Assembly (NCBI GenBank): GCA_002450255.1
Contig: DJYW01000052.1
Span: 1-10,232, forward strand
Direction: 5' to 3'
DNA: 10,232 nucleotides
Source: Gammaproteobacteria bacterium UBA6968
GTDB taxonomy: Bacteria; Pseudomonadota; Gammaproteobacteria; Pseudomonadales; Azotimanducaceae
How positions within the stretch are numbered: position 1 is the stretch's first letter; every line of letters begins with the position of its first letter. The notes beneath the pieces were generated by a model. That model saw only the letters and a program-made list of their open reading frames with translations, searched no databases and was not told the origin of the DNA. Both the position numbers and the translations under genes were made by a program. Positions 1 through 10,232 of the stretch are shown here, piece by piece.

Positions 1-1020
1 GCGCAGACCCAAGCTGATCTGCTCTATTACCAGCTTGCCGGGCTGCAACAGCAGCAAACTACTGATGAAGTCGCCGCGGTGATCACGAGTCAGCTAAGCA
101 ACACTCAATTGGGCTTACTCCTGGGTATCTGCGAAGCGCTGCCACTCAAAGTGCGGTGTTTTATTGACCGCGCTCTGCTGGCGCACCCGCAACAGATGAG
201 CAACGACAGTTATCACGTTCTCGATCTAGGCTTACATCAAAGTGTGCTCAGCCGTGTCGCGATGGAGCAGCAAACTTTGCGTGTGATAGAGCATAAAGCC
301 CTCCCCAACCTAGGGCTATTTACCATCGTCGACGGTTGGCTGAATCAAATAGCCGACGTCTGTATCCAAAACAGCCGATTTGACCCCCTGCATAATGCCG
401 CTGGAGAACAAAGCCTATTTGACCAGATTTACGCCTGGCTGCAGCAGGAGCAGGGCGGCAACCTAAACGTCAGCGTGATGCACAATGGCGCGAGCAGAAA
501 CATAGAGGTAACCACACAAGAGCTATCTGCGACGTTACAGAAGCGTATCGACCAAGAACTGTTCAGCGCAGTAGGCGCGTTACAACTGACCGCCACCAGC
601 AATCATTTGCCAGGCCTTCAAAATCTGATAAAAAGCATTATGAATAACACCCAAATAGTTGATTTAAATCACTATTTGAGAAATGCCATCTCGATTCACG
701 AAAACGCTAGTGAGGCTCAGGTTGAACGAATTAGCGAGCTCAATATGCAACGCACCGAGGCATCGCTAAGCGCGCCAGCTATCGCTAACAATGAGGACGC
801 TAGCGGCGCCGCCAAGGTGCCTGCTACGCACCTGCTGCTTGGCAGCACAGCGAAACCCCTCACTCACGCAGACTTCAATGCGTTCCTAGATGCAGATGGT
901 TTGTTAAGGCCGCAAACCACTGCCCTGATAAATGGTGCGGCACCGATCAGTGCGCGCCTCGCCGCGGGTGATCACGTTCAATTTGGCGATGCCACCTGGC
1001 TCGCTATCAGTGCGAGTTAA
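1..1020 (+). CDS. Hsp70/DnaK-like (actin-fold) protein with degenerate ATPase motifs, 5' partial
   Basis: The frame is open from base 1 to the TAA at 1018-1020 (339 residues visible), so the true start is left of the window; the GTG at 79 is an internal valine. Several blocks align by eye, in order, with the Hsp70 nucleotide-binding domain. Residues 23-45 (EVAAVITSQLSNTQ... then LPLKV) match the 'EAVITVPAYFNDAQR... GLEV' block. VLDLGLHQSV (73-82) sits where DnaK has the phosphate-2 loop DLGGGTFD. An NLG/DPL-containing stretch (about 103-131) matches 'HLGGEDFD... DPLAMQRL'. TATSNHLPGLQ (197-207) sits where the adenosine motif VGGxTRMPxVQ lies. The glycines and threonine of both nucleotide motifs are lost, so ATP hydrolysis is doubtful. 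The last ~65 residues form a separate segment (INGAAPISARLAAGD...) faintly like the end of an FHA domain. The gene leads into the vWA genes after 9 bp. Alternative: another actin-fold protein. The fold call is inference. Confidence 0.7.
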   Translation, partial: AQTQADLLYYQLAGLQQQQTTDEVAAVITSQLSNTQLGLLLGICEALPLKVRCFIDRALLAHPQQMSNDSYHVLDLGLHQSVLSRVAMEQQTLRVIEHKALPNLGLFTIVDGWLNQIADVCIQNSRFDPLHNAAGEQSLFDQIYAWLQQEQGGNLNVSVMHNGASRNIEVTTQELSATLQKRIDQELFSAVGALQLTATSNHLPGLQNLIKSIMNNTQIVDLNHYLRNAISIHENASEAQVERISELNMQRTEASLSAPAIANNEDASGAAKVPATHLLLGSTAKPLTHADFNAFLDADGLLRPQTTALINGAAPISARLAAGDHVQFGDATWLAISAS

Positions 1021-1029
1021 CGTATAGCC

Positions 1030-2118
1030 ATGGCTCAAGCACGCCGACTCACCACATTTTCGCTGTCTTTTCTAGACGTGATGTCGTGCGGATTCGGTGC
1101 GGTGGTCCTGATTTTTTTGTTGCTTAACCATGCCTCCAAAGAAGAACAAAAGGTGGTGAATAAGGATCAACTGGCAGAAATCAGACTGCTGGATTACCAA
1201 GTCCAAGAAGGTGAAAAAGAACTCTTTGAACTGCTTGAGACCACAACTGAAATCAATCGCCAACTGGAGCGCACAGATAGCCAAGTGGCGCGCGTTGAAT
1301 CCCAGCTAGAAAGCCAAACAGAGGCTTTGGAAACTCTTGAGACCGACGCCCAAGCCACGCTTGAGAACGTCAATCGACTGCGCTCCGACCTGGACAGCAG
1401 ACAGGACGAGGTGCAAAAGCTGCAAGCGCTGAAGGCAGCCGCAGATGGCACCCAGCTGCGCGCCATAGAGGGCGAAGGCGATCGGCAGTATTTAACGGGC
1501 ATGAAGGTCGGCGGACGCAATATCGTGATCGTGATTGATACGTCAACCAGCATGTTGGATGACACGCTAGTGAACGTCTTAAGACGGCGCAACATGGCGC
1601 CAGAGCGCCAACAGCAGGCACCAAAGTGGCAACGCGCGCTGCGCACAGTGGATTGGTTAGCGGCGCAACTGCCACTAGACGCGGAAATTCAGCTGTATGC
1701 TTTCAATGAGAAGGCTGCGAGTTTGCTTGGAGACGGCGCGATGGACTGGCAGCCGATGGGTGATGGGTCCACTCTAAATCGCGGCATTGAGCGTCTCGCG
1801 GAAGAGATTCCTAGCGGAGGCACCAATCTAGAGGGACTGATTCTTGCGATACGCGAGCTTTCACCGATTCCAGATAATGTCTATTTCATTACCGACGGCC
1901 TACCCACGCGAGGTGAATCGCCGCCACGCCAAGCGACAGTTGATGGCAAACGTCGTATGCGACTATTTACCGAAGCAGTATCGCGATTGCCCCGGCAGAT
2001 TCCGGTCAATGTCATCTTGTTTCCAATGGAAGGAGATTTCATGGCGGGGGCCGCCTGGTGGCAGTTGGCTCGCGCCAGCGGCGGCGCATTTATTTCACCG
2101 TCCTGGGATTGGCCGTAA
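1030..2118 (+). CDS. Membrane-anchored vWA-domain protein with ExbD/TolR-like transmembrane aspartate (first paralogue)
   Basis: 362 residues. The N-terminus is basic (MAQARR), followed by one hydrophobic helix at about residues 10-32 containing SFLDVMSCGFGA, with Asp16 near its start. Residues about 36-140 are polar, rich in Glu/Gln/Leu and read as coiled coil. A vWA domain follows from about residue 162: a hydrophobic strand, then the metal-site motif DTSTS (170-174), GGTN (263-266, supplying the usual MIDAS Thr265) and FITDG (286-290, Asp289). All MIDAS elements are present, so divalent-metal-dependent protein binding is expected. The topology should be N-in/C-out, placing the vWA domain in the periplasm. 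An aspartate at the head of a single N-terminal helix is the hallmark of ExbD/TolR/MotB, so this may be a stator-like subunit; that is inference. The ATG lies 9 bp after the preceding stop without a clear Shine-Dalgarno, suggesting coupling. The stop overlaps the next start (TAATG). Confidence 0.88.
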   Translation: MAQARRLTTFSLSFLDVMSCGFGAVVLIFLLLNHASKEEQKVVNKDQLAEIRLLDYQVQEGEKELFELLETTTEINRQLERTDSQVARVESQLESQTEALETLETDAQATLENVNRLRSDLDSRQDEVQKLQALKAAADGTQLRAIEGEGDRQYLTGMKVGGRNIVIVIDTSTSMLDDTLVNVLRRRNMAPERQQQAPKWQRALRTVDWLAAQLPLDAEIQLYAFNEKAASLLGDGAMDWQPMGDGSTLNRGIERLAEEIPSGGTNLEGLILAIRELSPIPDNVYFITDGLPTRGESPPRQATVDGKRRMRLFTEAVSRLPRQIPVNVILFPMEGDFMAGAAWWQLARASGGAFISPSWDWP

Positions 2119-3107
2119 TGGCTCGTGGTCGCCGCGAAGTCGCGGAATTTTCCGTTTCGTTTCTGGACGTCATTTGCTGCGGCTTTGGTGCTGTTATCTT
2201 GTTGCTCATGGTGACTCGTATTCTGGAACCACAACTACTCGAGGCGAGCCAAGTCGACCTTTCTGAGCAGGTCGCGGCACGCGAAGCCGCTCTGTTTGAA
2301 ATACGCGGCCAAATCAAAGAGCTACGTCGCCAAATGGTCGAGGAGTCGAATGATCTCGAAGCAGAGTTAACCCAATTAGCTGCACTGCAAACTGAGCTAG
2401 AGGCCGTGCTAGGCCGGTTCGATACCTTGTCTGAGTCACAGCAGGAAATTTCCCAGGAAAATCTGCAGCTTGCCGCTGCAAGGCAATCGTTGACAGACGA
2501 GATGGAACGCTTGCTGGGGCTCGATTTCCGCCGGGACTCGGGCCTGGTAGGCGGAATCACCGTGGATTCCGAGTACATAATTTTCATCATCGACACATCC
2601 GGCAGCATGCAATCAGCGGCATGGAATCAGGCCGTACGCAAGGTGAGCGAAACTCTCGCTATTTATCCTCAGGTGAAAGGCATCCAGGTCATGAACGACA
2701 TGGGCGATTACATGTTTCCTCGCTTTCGCGGCCAATGGATTGATGACAGCCAACAACGACGTAACGAGATCATCTCGCGACTACGCACTTGGGCACCGTT
2801 CAGCAACTCCAGCCCTGTGGAGGGCATCCGAGCAGCCATTCAAACATTTTATGATCCTGACAAACGTATCAGCCTGTATGTATTCGGCGACGACTACACC
2901 GGTGATTCAATTGAATCTGTGGTCGAGGCCGTAGACCGGTTAAATACCGCAGATGACAGTGGCCGACGCTTGGTACGTATCCACGCGGTGGGCTTTCCAG
3001 TGTATATTGATCGACCCAACGCGCGCGTCTATCGCTTTGCTGCGCTTATGCGGGAGCTCGCCTACCGCAACGATGGCACCTTCGTCGGGCTGACCGAATA
3101 TCAATAA
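2118..3107 (+). CDS. Membrane-anchored vWA-domain protein with ExbD/TolR-like transmembrane aspartate (second paralogue)
   Basis: 329 residues. I chose the ATG at 2118, which overlaps the previous stop as TAATG. From there the protein begins MARGRREVAEFSVSFLDV, matching its neighbour's start; the upstream in-frame ATG at 2058 would add 20 unrelated residues read from inside the neighbour's vWA domain. The single helix (about 11-32) contains SFLDVICCGFGA with Asp17. A Glu/Gln-rich coiled coil covers about 45-132, and a vWA domain starts at about 150: strand YIIFIID, MIDAS motif DTSGS (159-163), then FGDD (256-259) where the other copy has ITDG. The third MIDAS element is altered: SNSSP (229-233) replaces GGTN, so Ser rather than Thr would have to complete the metal site. 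With the first copy it looks like a diverged tandem duplication, perhaps a heterodimer pair. No strong ribosome site precedes it; translation is probably coupled. Confidence 0.87.
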   Translation: MARGRREVAEFSVSFLDVICCGFGAVILLLMVTRILEPQLLEASQVDLSEQVAAREAALFEIRGQIKELRRQMVEESNDLEAELTQLAALQTELEAVLGRFDTLSESQQEISQENLQLAAARQSLTDEMERLLGLDFRRDSGLVGGITVDSEYIIFIIDTSGSMQSAAWNQAVRKVSETLAIYPQVKGIQVMNDMGDYMFPRFRGQWIDDSQQRRNEIISRLRTWAPFSNSSPVEGIRAAIQTFYDPDKRISLYVFGDDYTGDSIESVVEAVDRLNTADDSGRRLVRIHAVGFPVYIDRPNARVYRFAALMRELAYRNDGTFVGLTEYQ

Positions 3108-3117
3108 TGCCGACTCA

Positions 3118-3879
3118 GTGACGACCCATTTAACCCTATTCGATATCCAACACATTATGCCAACTGCATCTACTGACCGATTGCCAATGCGTCCTAGCGC
3201 ACCCTCTTTAAATGCCACTAATGCCGCGCCGAAATCAAATCCGCGTCGCTTGTGGGGACTGGTCCTGCTGCTTGTGACTACGCTGCTTAACAGCGCTTGT
3301 GGCAGTCGTAACATAGAGCTGACCAACAGCTTCCCCGTGCCCTTGATTCAACCGGTGCCTGCCGCAATCGGGGTGCACCTACCGCCGGAGCTTCTCAATT
3401 TCACCCACGCCGAGTCTCTGGGTAACGACTCCGTCGCCATCAGTGTCGGCGGCGTGCAGCAGCGTTTGTTTCAGCGGTTATCCGGTGCTGCTTTTGCCGA
3501 TATGGTGATGCTCGAAGGGTTGCAGCCGATGCCTGATCTGGACGGTATTCTGGAGCCGGAAATCAAAGACTTTCAGCTATCCACCCCGGCGCAAACCCGC
3601 TCTGACTATTACGAGGTTTGGATACGTTTTCAGCTGCATCTATACGATTCCGAAGCGAACCTGGTTGGCAGCATTGACCTGCCTGCTTACGGCAAGGCCA
3701 ATAAAAATAACTTTGGCAACATTTCCAACGGGCTTTACGCTGCGACGGTTGCCGCTTGTCGCGATGCCATGGCCTACTTTAGCTTGAACTTTCGGCGCGA
3801 ACCGCTGTTTAAACAGTGGTTGGCCAAGCCACCAAATACGAGTCCGGTTAACGGCGTGCAGCCAGGAGATCCCTCATGA
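3118..3879 (+). CDS. Predicted lipoprotein of unknown function (first of two)
   Basis: 253 residues from the GTG at 3118, the first possible start after the in-frame TGA at 3091. ATG at 3157 and ATG at 3187 are alternatives and no start has a clear ribosome site. A type II signal peptide is plain: basic RR at 43-44, hydrophobic LWGLVLLLVTTLL, then lipobox LNSAC with Cys61 as the lipidated residue. Starting at 3187 would give a signal peptide of more ordinary length (37 residues before Cys). The mature part (~190 residues) lacks a domain I can name. Its C-terminal half, with YEVWIRFQLHLYDSEANLVG followed by a long Ala-rich helix, has the alternating pattern of small periplasmic lipoproteins such as YajG or LptE; this is a resemblance only. 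The residue after Cys is Gly, not Asp, so outer-membrane sorting is expected by the Lol rule. It is coupled to the next lipoprotein by ATGA. Confidence 0.8.
   Translation: MTTHLTLFDIQHIMPTASTDRLPMRPSAPSLNATNAAPKSNPRRLWGLVLLLVTTLLNSACGSRNIELTNSFPVPLIQPVPAAIGVHLPPELLNFTHAESLGNDSVAISVGGVQQRLFQRLSGAAFADMVMLEGLQPMPDLDGILEPEIKDFQLSTPAQTRSDYYEVWIRFQLHLYDSEANLVGSIDLPAYGKANKNNFGNISNGLYAATVAACRDAMAYFSLNFRREPLFKQWLAKPPNTSPVNGVQPGDPS
3864..3868 (+). promoter_or_regulatory. Shine-Dalgarno site of the second lipoprotein gene
   Basis: AGGAG lies 7 nt before the ATG at 3876 and within the end of the preceding gene. It is the only strong ribosome site seen in the left-hand cluster, so this cistron may be translated independently of coupling. 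Confidence 0.75.
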
Positions 3880-4574
3880 AAGACTTTCGTCCCAAACAGT
3901 TTGCTCTGCTCGGCTTGTTTATCTTCCTTGCAAGCTTGCTCGGTGGCTGTGTGACCGCAACAGTGCAGGAAATGCGTGAGAGCGCCACTGGCTTAACCGG
4001 CGATGAGGCCGTTGTTGTCATCGGCCGCCGCAGTCGACCGTCACCCCAAGAAACCGAATTCGATTTCATTCAATGCGTTGCCAAAGACCTGCAATCCGGC
4101 AGCGGTGGTATTACGGTAATTTCGGAACAACAGTTTATGGACGCCACCTTCCCCTGGTTCGAGCCGCGCACTGCGCCAGAAAGAACCAGCGATCTGCCGG
4201 CCCTGTTGGAAGAACCGCTGCTTGCAGAGCGTTTGGAGGAGATTGGACTTAAATATTTGGTTTGGATTGAAGGTCAGACCATTCGCACTTCTTCAGCCGG
4301 ATCGTTGGGCTGCACCGTATCCGGTGCGGGCGGCGGCTGTTTCGGCTTCCTGACCTGGGAGAACGATGCATCATACGAAGCGACTGTCTGGGATACGAAA
4401 AAAGTGCGTTCAGTGGGACGCGTTTCTTCCGATGCCGCCGGTACCAGCTATATGCCAGCCTTGATTATTCCCATTCCGATCATTGCGCAGGTCAAAAACA
4501 ACGCCTGCGACGGCTTAGCCACCCAGCTTCGGACGTTTATGACTGAAACAGCCGGGGCGGGCTCCAGCGGCTAA
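3876..4574 (+). CDS. Predicted lipoprotein of unknown function (second of two)
   Basis: 232 residues. The ATG overlaps the previous stop (ATGA) and has a good AGGAG 7 nt upstream. The signal peptide is clear: MKDFRPK, a hydrophobic run, then lipobox LLGGC with Cys25. Val follows the Cys, so outer-membrane sorting is expected. The mature part has four cysteines: Cys67, Cys146, Cys155 and Cys211. The middle two flank a glycine-rich loop (GCTVSGAGGGCFGF), suggesting disulphides in an exported protein. A strand-rich section after it (YEATVWDTKKVRSVGRVS) leads to a hydrophobic stretch (YMPALIIPIPIIAQV, 192-206) and a final helix. I do not recognise a named family. Context places it at the end of the Hsp70-like/vWA cluster, with a likely envelope role in the same machine. 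Its stop codon overlaps that of the convergent methyltransferase gene. Confidence 0.82.
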   Translation: MKDFRPKQFALLGLFIFLASLLGGCVTATVQEMRESATGLTGDEAVVVIGRRSRPSPQETEFDFIQCVAKDLQSGSGGITVISEQQFMDATFPWFEPRTAPERTSDLPALLEEPLLAERLEEIGLKYLVWIEGQTIRTSSAGSLGCTVSGAGGGCFGFLTWENDASYEATVWDTKKVRSVGRVSSDAAGTSYMPALIIPIPIIAQVKNNACDGLATQLRTFMTETAGAGSSG

Positions 4575-5200
4575 CGCGGACGGACTTCGACCACTTCGCC
4601 GATGTGGCGGTCGGGTTCGATGCAGTACCACTCCTGCAAAGAGACGCGGCTCTTTGCACCGACCTTGTCACAAAATTCGTAAAACGTCGGCCTGCCAGGG
4701 TCAGCGATTATGACTCGCTTGGTGCCATTCTTGAGTGCTCGCCAGGTCATTTTCACCAATGGATCGACCAGAGAATCCCAGAAACAGACGTCACTACCGA
4801 CAATCACGTTCTGCTCTCCTAACAGGTTCCCCGGCATTTTAGTGAAGTCACGACACCGCTTGCGAACCTCGACCGAGTTAATTTCAGCCAACACATTGAG
4901 ATAAGGAAACACCGCTGGATCTAAATCAACTGCTGTTACCTTAGCGTTGAAATGGTTTCCCGCAAAAATAGCAACGCCGCCCCAACCACAGCCTATCTCC
5001 ATAAACGTGCTGTTTTTCTTAATGGGATTGTGGCTTAGATAATCCATCATGACGAAAGCCGACTCCCAGGTGCGATCACCATGCACTGATGGCTTATATC
5101 TCTTGTTTAAAGCTTTGATTAGCCTGTGCTTTTTTTTCAACAAAAAAAGCCCGTAAGCGTAATCGATATGCGGTTCAGGCAGGCGTTCGAGCCGTGGCAT
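4571..5200 (-). CDS. Class I SAM-dependent methyltransferase, METTL20/METTL21-like (probable protein lysine methyltransferase)
   Basis: 209 residues, usual size for a single Rossmann methyltransferase. The ATG at 5200 is the only start after an in-frame TGA five codons upstream, and GAGAG lies about 9 nt before it. SAM-binding motif I is MEIGCGWGG (67-75); motif II ends VTAVDLDP (88-95), with Asp92 or Asp94 in position to hold the ribose. GSDVCFWDS (135-143) contains a D-x-x-F sequence, the post-II motif of the seven-beta-strand (family 16) lysine methyltransferases. ADPGRPTFYEF (166-176) resembles the DPGR segment of ETFB lysine methyltransferase (METTL20). By that likeness it would methylate a lysine of a cytosolic protein, perhaps ETF-beta; the substrate is a guess, and a small-molecule methyltransferase is not excluded. 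It is convergent with the lipoprotein gene and divergent from suf. Its 5' region has unusual repeat structure (5128-5150 and 5149-5258). Confidence 0.85.
   Translation of the reverse strand: MPRLERLPEPHIDYAYGLFLLKKKHRLIKALNKRYKPSVHGDRTWESAFVMMDYLSHNPIKKNSTFMEIGCGWGGVAIFAGNHFNAKVTAVDLDPAVFPYLNVLAEINSVEVRKRCRDFTKMPGNLLGEQNVIVGSDVCFWDSLVDPLVKMTWRALKNGTKRVIIADPGRPTFYEFCDKVGAKSRVSLQEWYCIEPDRHIGEVVEVRPR
5128..5150. repeat. A/T-tract inverted repeat inside the methyltransferase gene
   Basis: GC plus seven T pairs perfectly with seven A plus GC (arms 5128-5136 and 5142-5150, 5-nt loop). On the coding (minus) strand it appears as a T7 run and an A8 run at codons 18-24, the A8 run encoding three lysines. 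It may simply reflect codon choice, but it is a slippery sequence near the start of the gene. Confidence 0.7.
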
Positions 5201-5746: not shown

Positions 5747-7258
5747 GTGTCCGAATCATCGCCATCCAATCTCGACACCCTTGTCGCAGGACAACGCGAA
5801 TATAGCGCAGGTTTTGTCACCGATATCGATTCGGAGACACTGCCTCCTGGTCTTGATGAAACGGTTGTCCGGTTTATTTCCGAGCGTAAGGGTGAACCTA
5901 CCTGGCTGACTGATTGGCGTCTGCAGGCACTCGAGAAGTGGTCGACCATGCAGGCACCTAACTGGGCGCATGTACATCATGAGCCGATCGACTTTCAGGC
6001 GATCTCTTACTACTCCGCACCTAAGAATCAACAGGATGGCCCTAAGTCCCTCGACGAGGTCGATCCTGAGTTACTGCGCACCTATGAGAAACTCGGTATT
6101 CCTTTGCATGAACAGGCCGCATTGGCCGGTGTGGTCAGCGACCCGGATGCCCCGCTCACAGGTGCAACATCGGGGCGCAGTAACGTCGCGGTTGACGTGG
6201 TTTTTGACAGCGTTTCGATCACCACCACTTTCAAAGAGAAATTGGCGGAGGCCGGAGTTGTTTTTTGCCCTATCTCCGAAGCCGTGCATAGCCATCCAGA
6301 GTTGATTAAGCAATACCTGGGCAGCGTCATCCCCCAGGGCGACAACTTCTATGCAGCATTGAATTCTGCAGTGTTTAGCGACGGCTCTTTTGTGTATATC
6401 CCCAAAGGTGTGCGCTGCCCAATGGAGCTTTCGACCTACTTCAGGATCAATGAACGCAACACGGGCCAGTTCGAGCGAACTCTAATCATCGCGGATGAGG
6501 GCTCACACGTGAGCTATCTGGAAGGTTGTACGGCGCCCATGCGGGACGAGAACCAGTTGCATGCCGCCGTGGTGGAACTCGTTGCTCTCGGTGATGCCGA
6601 AATCAAATATTCCACCGTCCAAAACTGGTATCCGGGCGACGAACAAGGACGTGGCGGTATTTACAACTTCGTGACCAAGCGAGGCATTTGCGCTGGCCCG
6701 CGAGCGAAAATTTCCTGGACTCAGGTTGAAACAGGCTCAGCCATTACCTGGAAATACCCAAGCGTGGTATTGCGTGGCGATGACTCGGTTGGCGAGTTTT
6801 ATTCCGTAGCATTAACCAACAACCGGCAACAGGCCGATACCGGGACAAAGATGATCCACCTCGGTAAAAACACTCGCAGCACCATCGTCGCCAAGGGCAT
6901 CAGCGCTGGCCGCAGCGATAGCAGCTATCGGGGCCTAGTACGCATATCGCCGACGGCGAAAAATGCCCGCAACTTTACCCAGTGTGACTCACTATTAATC
7001 GGCGGAGCCTGTGGCGCACATACGTTTCCGTATATAGAGAATAAATGCCGTTCCGCTATGGTCGAGCATGAGGCAAGCACATCCAAGGTCAGCGACGATC
7101 AACTGTTTGCCTGCCAACAGCGCGGCATCGACACAGAAAAAGCGGTCGGTATGATCGTTAATGGATTTTGCAAAGAAGTGTTTCGAGAGCTGCCCATGGA
7201 GTTCGCCGTGGAAGCTGGCAAGCTGCTTGAGGTCAGCTTGGAAGGAGCGGTCGGATGA
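5747..7258 (+). CDS. sufB: SufB, Fe-S cluster assembly scaffold protein
   Basis: SufB is the scaffold subunit of the cytosolic SufBC2D complex, on which sulfur from SufS and iron are built into Fe-S clusters. The protein has 503 residues (E. coli SufB has 495). It carries the full family pattern: the N-terminal helical part, the central parallel beta-helix (for example [19 protein letters not shown]) and the conserved C-terminus. Cys413, in [12 protein letters not shown], and His441-Glu442, in MVEHEASTS, correspond to E. coli Cys405, His433 and Glu434 with a constant offset of 8; these are the cluster-building residues. The C-terminal helical part includes [12 protein letters not shown] and NGFCKEVF. 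It starts with GTG behind AGAGG and is the first gene of the operon. Its TGA overlaps the sufC ATG (ATGA). No residue looks lost. Identification is secure. Confidence 0.97.
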
Positions 7259-8019
7259 CTTTGTTACAAGTCACCAATCTGCAAGCGGATGTCATAGAAA
7301 ACGAAGACACCCAGGCCCATACGCATATTTTGAAAGGCCTCAATCTGACCGTTAATGCCGGCGAAGTCCACGCCATAATGGGACCGAACGGCAGCGGCAA
7401 ATCGACCCTTGCTAGTGTGATGGCGGGACGCCCCGGCTACGTCGTTACCGACGGCAGCATCTGCCTGGAAGGACACAATCTAGCGGACCTGGAGCCACAC
7501 GAACGTGCTCGCGACGGTATTTTTTTAGCTTTCCAATACCCGGTAGAAATTCCGGGTGTCAGCAATATGGAATTTCTTAAGGCCAGCACAGACTCGCTTG
7601 CAGCAGCACGCGGTGAGTCTCCATTGAGCACCGCAGAATTCATTAAAACGGTTCGGAGCCTTGCTCAGTCGCTTGACCTCGATCCCCAGTTCCTGAAACG
7701 CGGGGTCAATGAAGGCTTCAGCGGAGGCGAGAAAAAACGCAACGAAATCATGCAGATGCTGCTGCTTCAGCCCAAGCTCGCCATCCTTGATGAAACCGAT
7801 TCCGGCCTCGACATTGATGCGCTGCAGGTCGTTGCCGAAGGCGTTAACCGCTTCCGCTCAACGGCAAATGGCTTGATCTTAATTACCCACTATCAGCGCC
7901 TGTTGGACTACATCCAGCCAGATTTTGTGCATGTTTTGGCCGATGGCCAAATCGTGCAATCCGGCGATAAGTCATTGGCACTCGAGCTAGAAGCCAAAGG
8001 CTACGCATGGCTAAGGTAG
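7255..8019 (+). CDS. sufC: SufC, ATPase of the SufBCD Fe-S assembly complex
   Basis: SufC is the ABC-type ATPase that dimerises on SufB and SufD and drives the conformational change needed for cluster assembly; it is cytosolic and not part of a transporter. The protein has 254 residues (family about 250). Walker A is GPNGSGKST (43-51), the signature is FSGGEK (155-160), Walker B is LAILDE (175-180), followed by the SufC-type D-loop region TDSGLD; the switch histidine is His212 (THY). The Q-loop lies in [11 protein letters not shown] (91-101), typical of SufC. The N-terminus has a few extra residues ([10 protein letters not shown]) between the first strand and the conserved LKGLNL. The ATG overlaps the sufB stop, with AAGGAG at 7242-7247, 7 nt upstream. 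The end overlaps sufD by 13 bp. Identification is secure. Confidence 0.97.
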
Positions 8020-9167
8020 CTCTCGCCCTGCCAGCCGACACTCGCGATTTGAGCTGGCTGCCAGAAACGCCACGCCAACAGGCCGGTAGCACTGCGTTAA
8101 CAGCCGCATTGAATAGCACCCTGCATCGCGAGCGCTGGAAATACACGTCGTCCAAGCTCTGCCTCGAGGCGCTCAACGCAGTTATGCAACCGCCGCGCAT
8201 TACAGGCTTGGACCAGACCGGAGTACAGCATTTAGACCTGGCGCCCTCTGCCCTGCCAGATGCTCTGTTTGATCCAATCAGCGCGCCTGAAGCTGCTGCT
8301 CGACTAAGCTATGCAAATCAGATCAGCATTGTTGAAATTACGGCGCCCCTGCAGCAATCGTTGCATATTTATCACGCTGCCAATACCCAGCCATGTATCA
8401 TTTTGCTGCGAACGAACAGCGAGGCCGAACTGCTCGAAATCATTCAGCCAAGCGACGCGCCCATGCAACAAACCTTGTGGGTTTACCTCGAGGCCAATGC
8501 GCGTCTGGTGCATTCGCGGAACACTGAGCCTGCTGAGAGCACCTCCGGCCACGGTGCTGCCTTAAGCAGTGCGACTGATCATAATTGGCAATATCTGCGG
8601 ATTTTGCTGGACCAAGCCGCTCGCTACAGCCTGCATAACCACCTGTGTGGCGCAAGCCAACGCCGTCAGGATATCCAGATTTGCCTGGCTGCACCGGACA
8701 GCGAAGCAAACTTGTTGAGCGCTGCAGCCATCGGTGCAAAGCAACATTTGGATCAGCAGGTCACCATAGAACATCGCGCACCGCGCACTCGTAGTCAGCA
8801 GCGCTTGCATAATGTGGTCGCCGATGGCGGCAATGTCACATTTAACGGACGCATCCATATCCACGCCGGTGCCAACGGCAGTGACGCACAGTTAAGCAAC
8901 AAAAATATTGCGCTAGGCGATGGGGCGACCATTAACACCAAGCCAGAGCTAGAGATCTACACCGATGATGTGCGCTGCGCTCACGGTGCGACTATTGGCC
9001 AACTCGCAGCAGATGAAATCTATTATCTGCAATCTAGAGGCATCAATGCCGAGCAGGCCCAGACCCTGCTCAGTCGCGGCTTTTTACTACAGTGCATGCA
9101 AGGACCTTTAGCGGAGTCGGCACAAAAACTCCTCAACACACTCGGCTTGGCACAGGAATCGACATGA
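8007..9167 (+). CDS. sufD: SufD, Fe-S cluster assembly protein
   Basis: SufD is the SufB paralogue in the SufBC2D complex, needed for iron acquisition. The protein has 386 residues, shorter than E. coli SufD (423). The N-terminal helical part, including RERWKYTSS (about 34-42), is followed by a divergent beta-helix region. The C-terminus is strongly conserved: NGRIHIHAGANGSDAQLSNK, then CAHGATIGQL with His326 (matching E. coli His360, which faces the SufB cysteine), then YYLQSRGI. The middle, about residues 90-230, is less conserved and rich in Ala/Gln, and most of the length difference probably falls there. The ATG at 8007 lies inside sufC (13-bp overlap) with AAAGG 6 nt upstream; no later start would keep the N-terminal helices. 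It is coupled to sufS by ATGA. Confidence 0.95.
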   Translation: MAKVALALPADTRDLSWLPETPRQQAGSTALTAALNSTLHRERWKYTSSKLCLEALNAVMQPPRITGLDQTGVQHLDLAPSALPDALFDPISAPEAAARLSYANQISIVEITAPLQQSLHIYHAANTQPCIILLRTNSEAELLEIIQPSDAPMQQTLWVYLEANARLVHSRNTEPAESTSGHGAALSSATDHNWQYLRILLDQAARYSLHNHLCGASQRRQDIQICLAAPDSEANLLSAAAIGAKQHLDQQVTIEHRAPRTRSQQRLHNVVADGGNVTFNGRIHIHAGANGSDAQLSNKNIALGDGATINTKPELEIYTDDVRCAHGATIGQLAADEIYYLQSRGINAEQAQTLLSRGFLLQCMQGPLAESAQKLLNTLGLAQEST

Positions 9168-10232
9168 GTATTCGCAAAGATTTTCCGATTCTACGTACTA
9201 GCGAGAATGGTAAAACCATTACCTATCTGGACAGCGCGGCGACGACGCAAAAACCCACCAGCGTGATTGCTGCCGTAGACCATTACTACCGCCAGCAAAA
9301 CTCAAATATTCACCGCGCGGCACATCATCTGGCGGACATTGCCACGCGGGCCTACGAGCACGCCCGGGAACTGTGCCGCGACTATATCGGTGCAGCAGAG
9401 ACCGCTGAGATCATTTTCACGTCAGGCACCACTGCCAGCATTAATCTTGTTGCACAAGCGCTAACGACCTCGGTCAAGCCTGGGCAAACCATTGTGATCA
9501 GTGAGCTTGAGCATCACTCAAATATCGTTCCATGGCAGATGCTAGCAGAACGCACGGGCGCGCAAATCGAGGCCATCGCGATCACCGATGAGGGCGATCT
9601 GGATCTTGCGGACGCGCGCGTGAAGATCGATTCACGCTGTGCTCTTGTCGCAATTACCCACATCTCTAACGGACTGGGCAGCATTAATCCCGTTGACGAG
9701 ATTATCCAACTAGCGAAACAGCAGGATGCGCTCACGCTTGTCGATGGCGCTCAGGCAGCATTACACCTGGACTTGGATGTTCAGGCTCTGGATTGTGACT
9801 TTTATGTCTTCTCCGGACATAAACTATTTGCCCCGACTGGTATTGGCATTCTTTATGGCAAACGCCGGCGTCTAGAAGAATTGCCGCCGGCGTCCGGTGG
9901 TGGAGAGATGATCGAGAAAGTCACTTTGACCGAGAGCACCTACCAAAAACCACCTTTCAAGTTCGAACCAGGTACACCAAATATCGCAGGGGCTATCGGC
10001 TTGGGGGCCGCCATTGAGTACATCAATCACATCCCGAAAGCGGAACTCAAGACCAAAGAAGACGCGCTGATCGAAGCCGCCCTGACGGGGCTGCAAAACA
10101 TGCCTGAGGTGCGTCTTGTCGGCCGACCGCAGCAACGATCTGCCGTCATTTCATTTTTGCTCGAAGGCGCCCATCCTAATGATGTCGGCACACTCCTCGA
10201 TCAACAGGGCGTTGCCGTGCGCACCGGGCATC
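9164..10232 (+). CDS. sufS: SufS, cysteine desulfurase, 3' partial
   Basis: SufS is a PLP enzyme that converts cysteine to alanine and carries the released sulfur as a persulfide for SufBCD, usually with SufE or SufU. 356 codons are visible (family about 405-415) and the frame is open to the window edge. The N-terminus MSIRKDFPIL, then YLDSAATTQKP, is typical. PLP-site residues are His117 (ELEHHSN), Asp194 (LVDGAQ) and Lys220 (SGHK), matching E. coli His123, Asp200 and Lys226 with a constant offset of 6. FEPGTPN and the terminal RTGH are also conserved. The catalytic cysteine should be residue 358, two codons beyond the edge, so it cannot be confirmed. The ATG overlaps the sufD stop (ATGA), with AGGA at 9154-9157. 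Group II (SufS/CsdA) desulfurase is clear; sufS rather than csdA rests on the operon. Confidence 0.96.
   Translation, partial: MSIRKDFPILRTSENGKTITYLDSAATTQKPTSVIAAVDHYYRQQNSNIHRAAHHLADIATRAYEHARELCRDYIGAAETAEIIFTSGTTASINLVAQALTTSVKPGQTIVISELEHHSNIVPWQMLAERTGAQIEAIAITDEGDLDLADARVKIDSRCALVAITHISNGLGSINPVDEIIQLAKQQDALTLVDGAQAALHLDLDVQALDCDFYVFSGHKLFAPTGIGILYGKRRRLEELPPASGGGEMIEKVTLTESTYQKPPFKFEPGTPNIAGAIGLGAAIEYINHIPKAELKTKEDALIEAALTGLQNMPEVRLVGRPQQRSAVISFLLEGAHPNDVGTLLDQQGVAVRTGH

Follow-up and report, generated by a model that had tools for sequence, protein, structure and literature searches.

The window examined here, 10,232 nucleotides at the start of contig C97 (DJYW01000052.1) of Gammaproteobacteria bacterium UBA6968, belongs to a genome of 3.16 Mb in 187 contigs. 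Its first 4574 positions hold five tightly packed genes in one direction, as the first-pass annotation had observed, and these encode a truncated Hsp70-like protein, two proteins with a von Willebrand factor A domain (vWA1 and vWA2) and two lipoproteins (LP1 and LP2; Table 1). That annotation also expected a MotA/TolQ-like gene to the left of position 1, and the gene was found on contig C11 of the same genome. The last 24 bases of C11 (reversed) are the first 24 bases of the window. Joining the two yields a complete Hsp70-like reading frame of 411 codons, beginning at window position -215, whose start overlaps, as ATGA, the stop of a gene for a 266-residue MotA/TolQ/ExbB protein. The join is supported by six public contigs, in all of which (6/6) a TolQ-like gene directly precedes the Hsp70-like gene and the Hsp70-like protein can be aligned over almost its entire length, through the join. 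The window genes at 1-4574 are the downstream half of a larger conserved cluster.

Table 1 Coordinates of cluster features in the window
Feature	Position	Strand	Conservation or basis
Hsp70-like protein, last 339 of 411 codons; start on contig C11 at window position -215	1-1020	+	
FHA-like C-terminal domain of the Hsp70-like protein, approximate	826-1017	+	placement inferred from alignment
vWA1: short N-terminus, then a single TolR/ExbD-like helix, a coiled coil and a periplasmic vWA domain	1030-2118	+	
Codon of vWA1 Asp16, putative proton-carrying helix residue	1075-1077	+	invariant in 20/20 sequences
vWA1 DxSxS metal-site motif (metal ion-dependent adhesion site, MIDAS)	1537-1551	+	D170, S172, S174 invariant in 20/20
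vWA2: vWA1 paralogue, likewise with helix, coiled coil and vWA domain in this order	2118-3107	+	
Codon of vWA2 Asp17, equivalent of vWA1 Asp16	2166-2168	+	3/3 sequences
vWA2 DxSxS metal-site motif	2592-2606	+	D159, S161, S163 invariant in 3/3
LP1 lipoprotein; start GTG 3118 or ATG 3157; lipobox Cys codon 3298-3300	3118-3879	+	lipid Cys 22/22
LP2 lipoprotein; lipobox Cys codon 3948-3950; PelC/TolB-N/CsgG-like predicted fold	3876-4574	+	lipid Cys 21/21

A conserved cluster in two subtypes

Sixty-seven loci were compared, namely the joined locus of the window's own genome, six public contigs (L007-L012) and 60 loci from other genomes (L057-L096 and L101-L120); loci L001-L006, L013-L056 and L097-L100 were left out as short or duplicate. 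The 60 loci are a selection of the places with a vWA match and come from all 19 other genomes of the class sample, all 8 other genomes of the phylum sample and 30 genomes of the family sample (33 places). Protein families were assigned at E<1e-6 with profiles built iteratively from these same loci. Since every locus but our own was picked by its vWA match, vWA genes are present in 67/67 by construction. Many loci are cut by contig ends, and flank-adjusted counts take only those with enough flanking sequence.

The usual order is LCX (a low-complexity protein, often a lipoprotein), LP438 (a 438-residue lipoprotein), a tetratricopeptide repeat (TPR) protein, a PEGA-FGE protein, a small secreted protein, TolQ, optionally the Hsp70-like protein, vWA1, vWA2 and optionally LP1 and LP2. 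Thus the genes do recur together in other genomes, with their order kept across the 67 loci and a channel-like gene upstream, so neither finding that would have counted against the first-pass annotation was made. A few loci are rearranged or cut; in L065 tolQ follows the vWA genes, and in L119 Hsp70-LP1-LP2 stand before tolQ. Where enough upstream sequence is available, TolQ is present in 60/61 loci, PEGA-FGE in 56/57, TPR in 53/54, LP438 in 51/53 and LCX in 51/52.

Of the 61 loci with 2.5 kb or more of upstream sequence, 46 have the Hsp70-like gene and 15 lack it. LP1 and LP2 each occur in 29/43 loci with enough flank on both sides, and they track the Hsp70-like gene, being present in 29/35 loci that have it vs. 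0/8 that lack it. Because of this absence and this tracking, the Hsp70-like protein, LP1 and LP2 are accessory parts of the cluster. A secreted TPR/TonB_C-like protein, encoded upstream, is distributed likewise (31/37 clusters with the Hsp70-like gene vs. 0/10 without). The restriction of LP1, LP2 and the TonB_C-like protein to Hsp70-like clusters therefore defines two subtypes. Three genomes (G305, G334 and G351) each hold one cluster of either subtype (L088/L089, L094/L095 and L109/L110), the two being paralogous.

Prevalence was estimated with the vWA1 profile at E<=1e-10, with our own genome counted in each sample. The profile matches 97/101 genomes of the same family, covering 36/36 genera, 20/276 sampled genomes of the class and 9/299 genomes of the phylum sample. 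The class and phylum figures are lower bounds for distant clusters, because close relatives were the source of the search profile (A1). LP438 matches 19/276 class genomes, 18 of which are among the 20 vWA genomes, where about 1.4 would be expected by chance from the totals. In-frame stops interrupt the LP438 matches at G085:C7, G208:C7 and G167:C1, which are broken copies or sequencing errors. LP2 matches 8/276 class genomes; seven of the eight are vWA genomes, and all seven have an Hsp70-like gene in the cluster. Four further class loci (L065, L066, L070 and L071) have the Hsp70-like gene, and their genomes give no LP2 match.

A TolQ-like gene and paired vWA proteins

Both vWA proteins begin with a short basic stretch, followed by a helix such as FSLSFLDVMSCGFGAVVLIF. 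When vWA reading frames were extended upstream to the previous stop, by up to 150 codons, the helix motif F[LI]D was found in 129/131 frames and DxSxS, anywhere in the frame, also in 129/131. The frames lacking F[LI]D (in L066 and L112) look like wrong-frame open reading frames in GC-rich sequence, and DxSxS is missing from one frame in L066 and one in L093; all were left unrepaired and still count among the 131. The helix and the vWA domain are some 125 residues apart, and this stretch gives coiled-coil-type matches. The two proteins are paralogous (hhalign probability 99.1). vWA1 matches Pfam PF13519 above the cut-off (28.7 bits, cut-off 27), and vWA2 scores 16.3 bits, under that cut-off; DxSxS is nevertheless present in 3/3 vWA2 sequences, and the protein aligns with vWA1.

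The TolQ-like protein matches Pfam MotA_ExbB (PF01618) with 57.9 bits, above the cut-off of 22.9, and the tolQ equivalog TIGR02796 with E 3.5e-7 and 30.2 bits, not reaching the cut-off of 221. Its family profile finds no solved structure at E<=0.1, and Pfam and NCBIfam still place the family clearly. The family was found in 66/67 loci, and T189, N220 and T222 are kept in 66/66; T189 and T222 are the residues that we equate with the pore-helix threonines of ExbB/TolQ. The cluster stretches that were fetched contain no ExbD/TolR match (0/15 genomes searched), and all 15 genomes have ExbD genes elsewhere; the nearest, in G226, lies about 2 kb outside the fetched stretch. Because the vWA proteins have a TolR/ExbD-like helix with F[LI]D and the TolQ threonines are kept, the vWA proteins probably replace TolR as the axle of the ring and would be part of the motor itself. 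The first-pass annotation had proposed a trans-envelope machine in which a channel energizes the vWA proteins. The channel gene is indeed present, but judging from these motifs the vWA proteins are probably parts of the motor and not separate clients of it.

Proteins of this kind have been described recently: vWA proteins with a TolR/ExbD-like helix and a conserved Asp, mostly as heterologous pairs, adjoin tolQ where tolR is lacking (PMC12204202, Mol Biol Evol 2025). The present cluster shares the features given there, i.e., a single Asp-bearing helix joined to vWA, unlike pairs, an adjacent tolQ-like gene and no tolR/exbD.

Partner proteins

The PEGA-FGE protein has, by eye, an inner-membrane anchor of a single helix. 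Only one column of its FGE-like domain, 518, has Cys in over 20% of sequences (55/60), and the C-terminal stretch contains no Cys in three aligned sequences. We take the catalytic cysteine pair of FGE enzymes to lie C-terminally and column 518 to be non-catalytic. A catalytic FGE role was dropped, as the catalytic cysteines are absent. The best NCBIfam match of the domain is GldK/PorK (TIGR03525; E 1.4e-22, 80.6 bits, cut-off of 350 not reached). PorK, a ring protein of the type IX secretion system (T9SS), has an FGE fold without catalytic cysteines and is described as a docking hub (PMC12421860). In L061 PEGA-FGE is read as two overlapping frames, which are split, broken or misread.

Directly upstream of tolQ, a short frame ending [FYML]P.[DN]I-stop was found in 64/66 loci, with the exact ending FPVDI in 43 of the 64. 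Stricter patterns had given 26/66 and then 36/66, at least one of the latter (L077) in a wrong reading frame. Since the broader pattern was chosen after these first results, control windows were counted: it occurs 0/66 times on the other strand and in 1/1468 control windows of the same loci (5/1468 for a looser pattern). The single control match is the genuine displaced copy of L065, in which tolQ has moved and the small gene is still before the Hsp70-like gene. In the second miss, L118, the copy lies within a TolQ frame that extends too far. Thus the tail is present in 66/66 loci with TolQ. The copy of our own genome lies on contig C11 (L006, minus strand, near 1152-1745) and partly reads N. 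By eye, the N-terminus resembles a signal peptide. The likely mature part may be as short as about 15-18 residues in Hsp70-less clusters such as L073, L089, L103, L104, L105 and L108, and is longer in others of them (L061, L110 and L111). The rest of the protein varies and is probably disordered, and a free, nearly fixed tail on such a protein suggests a peptide ligand. As receptors of the tail, the candidates are the FGE-like domain, the TPR proteins and a vWA metal site, in which its Asp could be gripped.

Scanning the window proteins against Pfam and NCBIfam told little about the truncated Hsp70-like protein, and searches with the whole family were more informative. The protein scores 16.4 bits against Pfam PF00012 (cut-off 20.6), and its predicted structure is the Hsp70 nucleotide-binding-domain fold, with Ssz1 among the best structural matches. 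The alignment consensus contains neither LGTT nor GGGT, presumably the phosphate-binding motifs of Hsp70, and the model has just two residues between the first two strands. The phosphate-binding loops thus appear, in the model, to be shortened or lost. Where Hsp70 would have its substrate-binding domain sits an FHA-like domain: Pfam FHA is matched by 5/23 homologues (best E 1.8e-12), and the C-terminal end of the profile matches FHA chains of known structure (best E 0.0015).

The same scans gave little for LP1 and LP2, with no Pfam family above the cut-off for LP2. The profiles of LP1 and LP438 find no convincing relative of known structure. For LP2, a search of solved structures gives a single match at E<=1, to an adenosine deaminase-like protein (E 0.39), and none at E<=0.1. 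The predicted fold of LP2 resembles PelC and TolB-N, and four invariant cysteines are found besides the lipobox Cys. Its profile matches 1003 proteins at E<=0.001 among 3393 candidates. A second strong LP2 match (E 2.0e-81) in our own genome is at the end of a contig (G000:C32:3-575), outside the cluster. In G149 LP2 lies on C52 (13731-14360) and the vWA cluster on C2; that cluster has an Hsp70-like gene and no LP1/LP2 in the fetched stretch. On the minus strand at 4571-5200 lies a gene for an S-adenosylmethionine-dependent methyltransferase (Methyltransf_25 above cut-off), which often follows LP2 in relatives and is probably a mere neighbor. Positions 5747-10231 hold apparent SUF iron-sulfur genes (sufB, sufC, sufD and sufS-like, named by eye), and sufB is near the cluster in several relatives too. 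A phage origin is unsupported, as viral contigs scanned with two short patterns gave no relative.

Proposed mechanism and relation to known motors

The reading that we favor, and consider rather probable, is that the cluster, whose downstream half lies in the window, encodes a rotary machine that would span the envelope, be driven by protons and act on a periplasmic hub and outer-membrane lipoproteins. Gene content, gene order, conservation and co-occurrence are directly observed, as are the motifs and two predicted folds. The stoichiometry, rotation, topology, partners and work done are what we infer, as follows. Five TolQ-like subunits would form the inner-membrane ring, and one vWA1 helix and one vWA2 helix would form the axle within it. 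Each axle helix would bring one proton-carrying Asp opposite the ring threonines, giving 5:1:1 in place of TolQ5:TolR2. Proton flow would rotate the vWA1/vWA2 pair, and a coiled coil of about 100 residues would carry the two different vWA heads into the periplasm. Their targets there may be the PEGA-FGE protein with its single helix, the TPR protein and the lipoproteins of the outer membrane; like PorK, the PEGA-FGE protein would be a docking hub with an FGE fold and no enzymatic role. The [FYML]P.[DN]I tail of the small secreted protein would dock parts by binding the FGE groove, the vWA metal site or the TPR groove. The Hsp70-FHA protein would be a non-hydrolyzing cytoplasmic docking or control subunit of one subtype, usually accompanied by LP1, LP2 and the secreted TPR/TonB_C-like protein.

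Several observations weigh against this machine. Confidence in the LP2 model is medium (pLDDT 75.5). The match of the FGE domain to PorK is unspecific: the best-scoring solved structure is a Treponema variable protein (E 1.4e-11), and PorK and true FGE enzymes give similar values, both near 1e-8. One of the 67 loci, L066, lacks both a recognized TolQ and the peptide tail. Co-occurrence is imperfect, as G167 has an LP438 match and no vWA match, G076 and G189 have a vWA match and no LP438 match, and G073, one of the eight LP2 genomes, has a weaker LP2 match and no vWA match. Furthermore, the core is found in just 20/276 class genomes and is therefore not essential in general.

Other explanations were weighed against the same evidence. 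The cluster could encode a Ton/Tol-like energizer, whose motor would pull outer-membrane receptors via the upstream-encoded TPR/TonB_C-like protein. We regard this as unlikely: the ring is TolQ-like, TonB_C is matched below cut-off in the two proteins scanned (E 1.7e-4 and 7.6e-4) and the TPR/TonB_C-like protein is found solely in Hsp70-like clusters (31/37 vs. 0/10), but the core exists in Hsp70-less clusters without that protein, which by eye shows an apparent signal peptide and not a TonB-type anchor. The separate ExbD genes elsewhere in all 15 genomes searched and the vWA heads, in place of TolR heads, on the axle proteins also argue against it. No more convincing is the explanation that the Hsp70-like protein, LP1 and LP2 are unrelated neighbors of a TolQ-vWA core. 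A whole subtype lacks all three, LP1/LP2 are sometimes upstream on the other strand and LP2 is sometimes elsewhere in the genome. Against this stand the tracking of LP1 and LP2 with the Hsp70-like gene (29/35 vs. 0/8) and the class sample, in which 7/8 LP2 genomes are vWA genomes, all seven with the Hsp70-like gene in the cluster.

A defense system of the Zorya type (a ZorAB motor with effectors) shares, from general knowledge, the same class of membrane motor, yet it seems very improbable here. Nine cluster proteins match no PADLOC Zorya model at E<=0.01 (the library presumably includes ZorA/ZorB models), the weak PADLOC matches listed are to other systems and seem to reflect coiled coils or repeats, neither a nuclease nor a helicase was recognized in the cluster, and presence in 97/101 family genomes is unlike a patchy defense island. 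A gliding or surface-attachment machine of the Agl-Glt or Gld type, in which vWA heads or outer-membrane parts would move adhesins along a surface, is a somewhat weaker candidate than the Ton/Tol-like energizer. It would account for one ring subunit being combined with two unlike B-type subunits, as described for AglRQS (PMC9389320), and for the resemblance of the FGE domain to GldK/GldJ, and gliding is raised in PMC12204202 for a related vWA family. On the other hand, the GldK score is 80.6 against a cut-off of 350, and no adhesin or gliding gene was recognized in the fetched stretches, in which no systematic search for them was made.

The favored rotary machine has relatives in several known systems. 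The TolQ plus paired TPH-vWA motor of PMC12204202 (Idiomarina query) likewise has a tolQ-like gene, two unlike vWA genes, a TolR/ExbD-like Asp helix and no tolR/exbD; thus the motor core is already in print as a proposal. For its TPH-vWA family the text of that paper names just the vWA and tolQ genes, and its TPR gene is named for a different vWA family. The words "Hsp70" and "FGE" are absent from its main text. The PEGA-FGE protein, lipoproteins, Hsp70-FHA protein and small secreted protein are found here and not in that text, to whose Idiomarina cluster ours is likened by description only. The earlier statement that no named system has this composition therefore stands for the wider cluster within the literature searched, but not for the TolQ and paired vWA core, described in 2025. 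Searches of the open-access PMC literature gave no account of the full composition, of the subtypes, of an FGE/T9SS analogy for this cluster, of the Hsp70-FHA architecture or of the small secreted protein, and "FPVDI" gave no paper there either.

With PorLM/GldLM and PorKN/GldKN of T9SS and gliding, the cluster would share a proton-driven inner-membrane motor, an FGE-fold protein lacking the catalytic cysteines and an outer-membrane ring, as described for those systems in PMC12421860 and PMC9389320. It differs from them in its vWA heads, TolQ-family ring, PEGA repeats and, by eye, the inner-membrane anchor on the FGE protein. With TolQRA-Pal and ExbBD-TonB it has in common the TolQ-type ring protein and the TolR-type helix with Asp, whereas vWA heads stand where TolR has its periplasmic domain. 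The Hsp70-like protein shares its nucleotide-binding fold with atypical Hsp70s, among them Ssz1, and has an FHA-like C-terminus in place of the substrate domain. LP2 shares its predicted fold with PelC, the TolB N-domain and CsgG, and has its own invariant cysteine set. More tentatively, since we hold it possible and not probable, the cluster may represent an undescribed class of rotary machine that follows the motor-and-ring logic of T9SS with other parts, namely a TolQ pentamer around an asymmetric vWA1/vWA2 axle, a non-enzymatic PEGA-FGE hub, the TPR protein, outer-membrane lipoproteins, a tiny exported peptide that would organize them through its docking tail, whose Asp might hold a vWA metal site, and pseudo-Hsp70-FHA control from the cytoplasm.

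Motors of the 5:2 type, driven by protons or other ions, power flagella, the Tol-Pal system, Ton-dependent uptake, type IX secretion and gliding (PMC9389320, and partly general knowledge), and we place the cluster as a variant of the proton-driven 5:2 systems. Conserved in 97/101 sampled genomes of one family, it apparently lists the parts for a motor, a hub and outer-membrane partners. The two subtypes, sometimes in one genome, let core and accessory roles be separated, and the nearly fixed tail of a small exported protein is a direct handle on its receptor and on the model.

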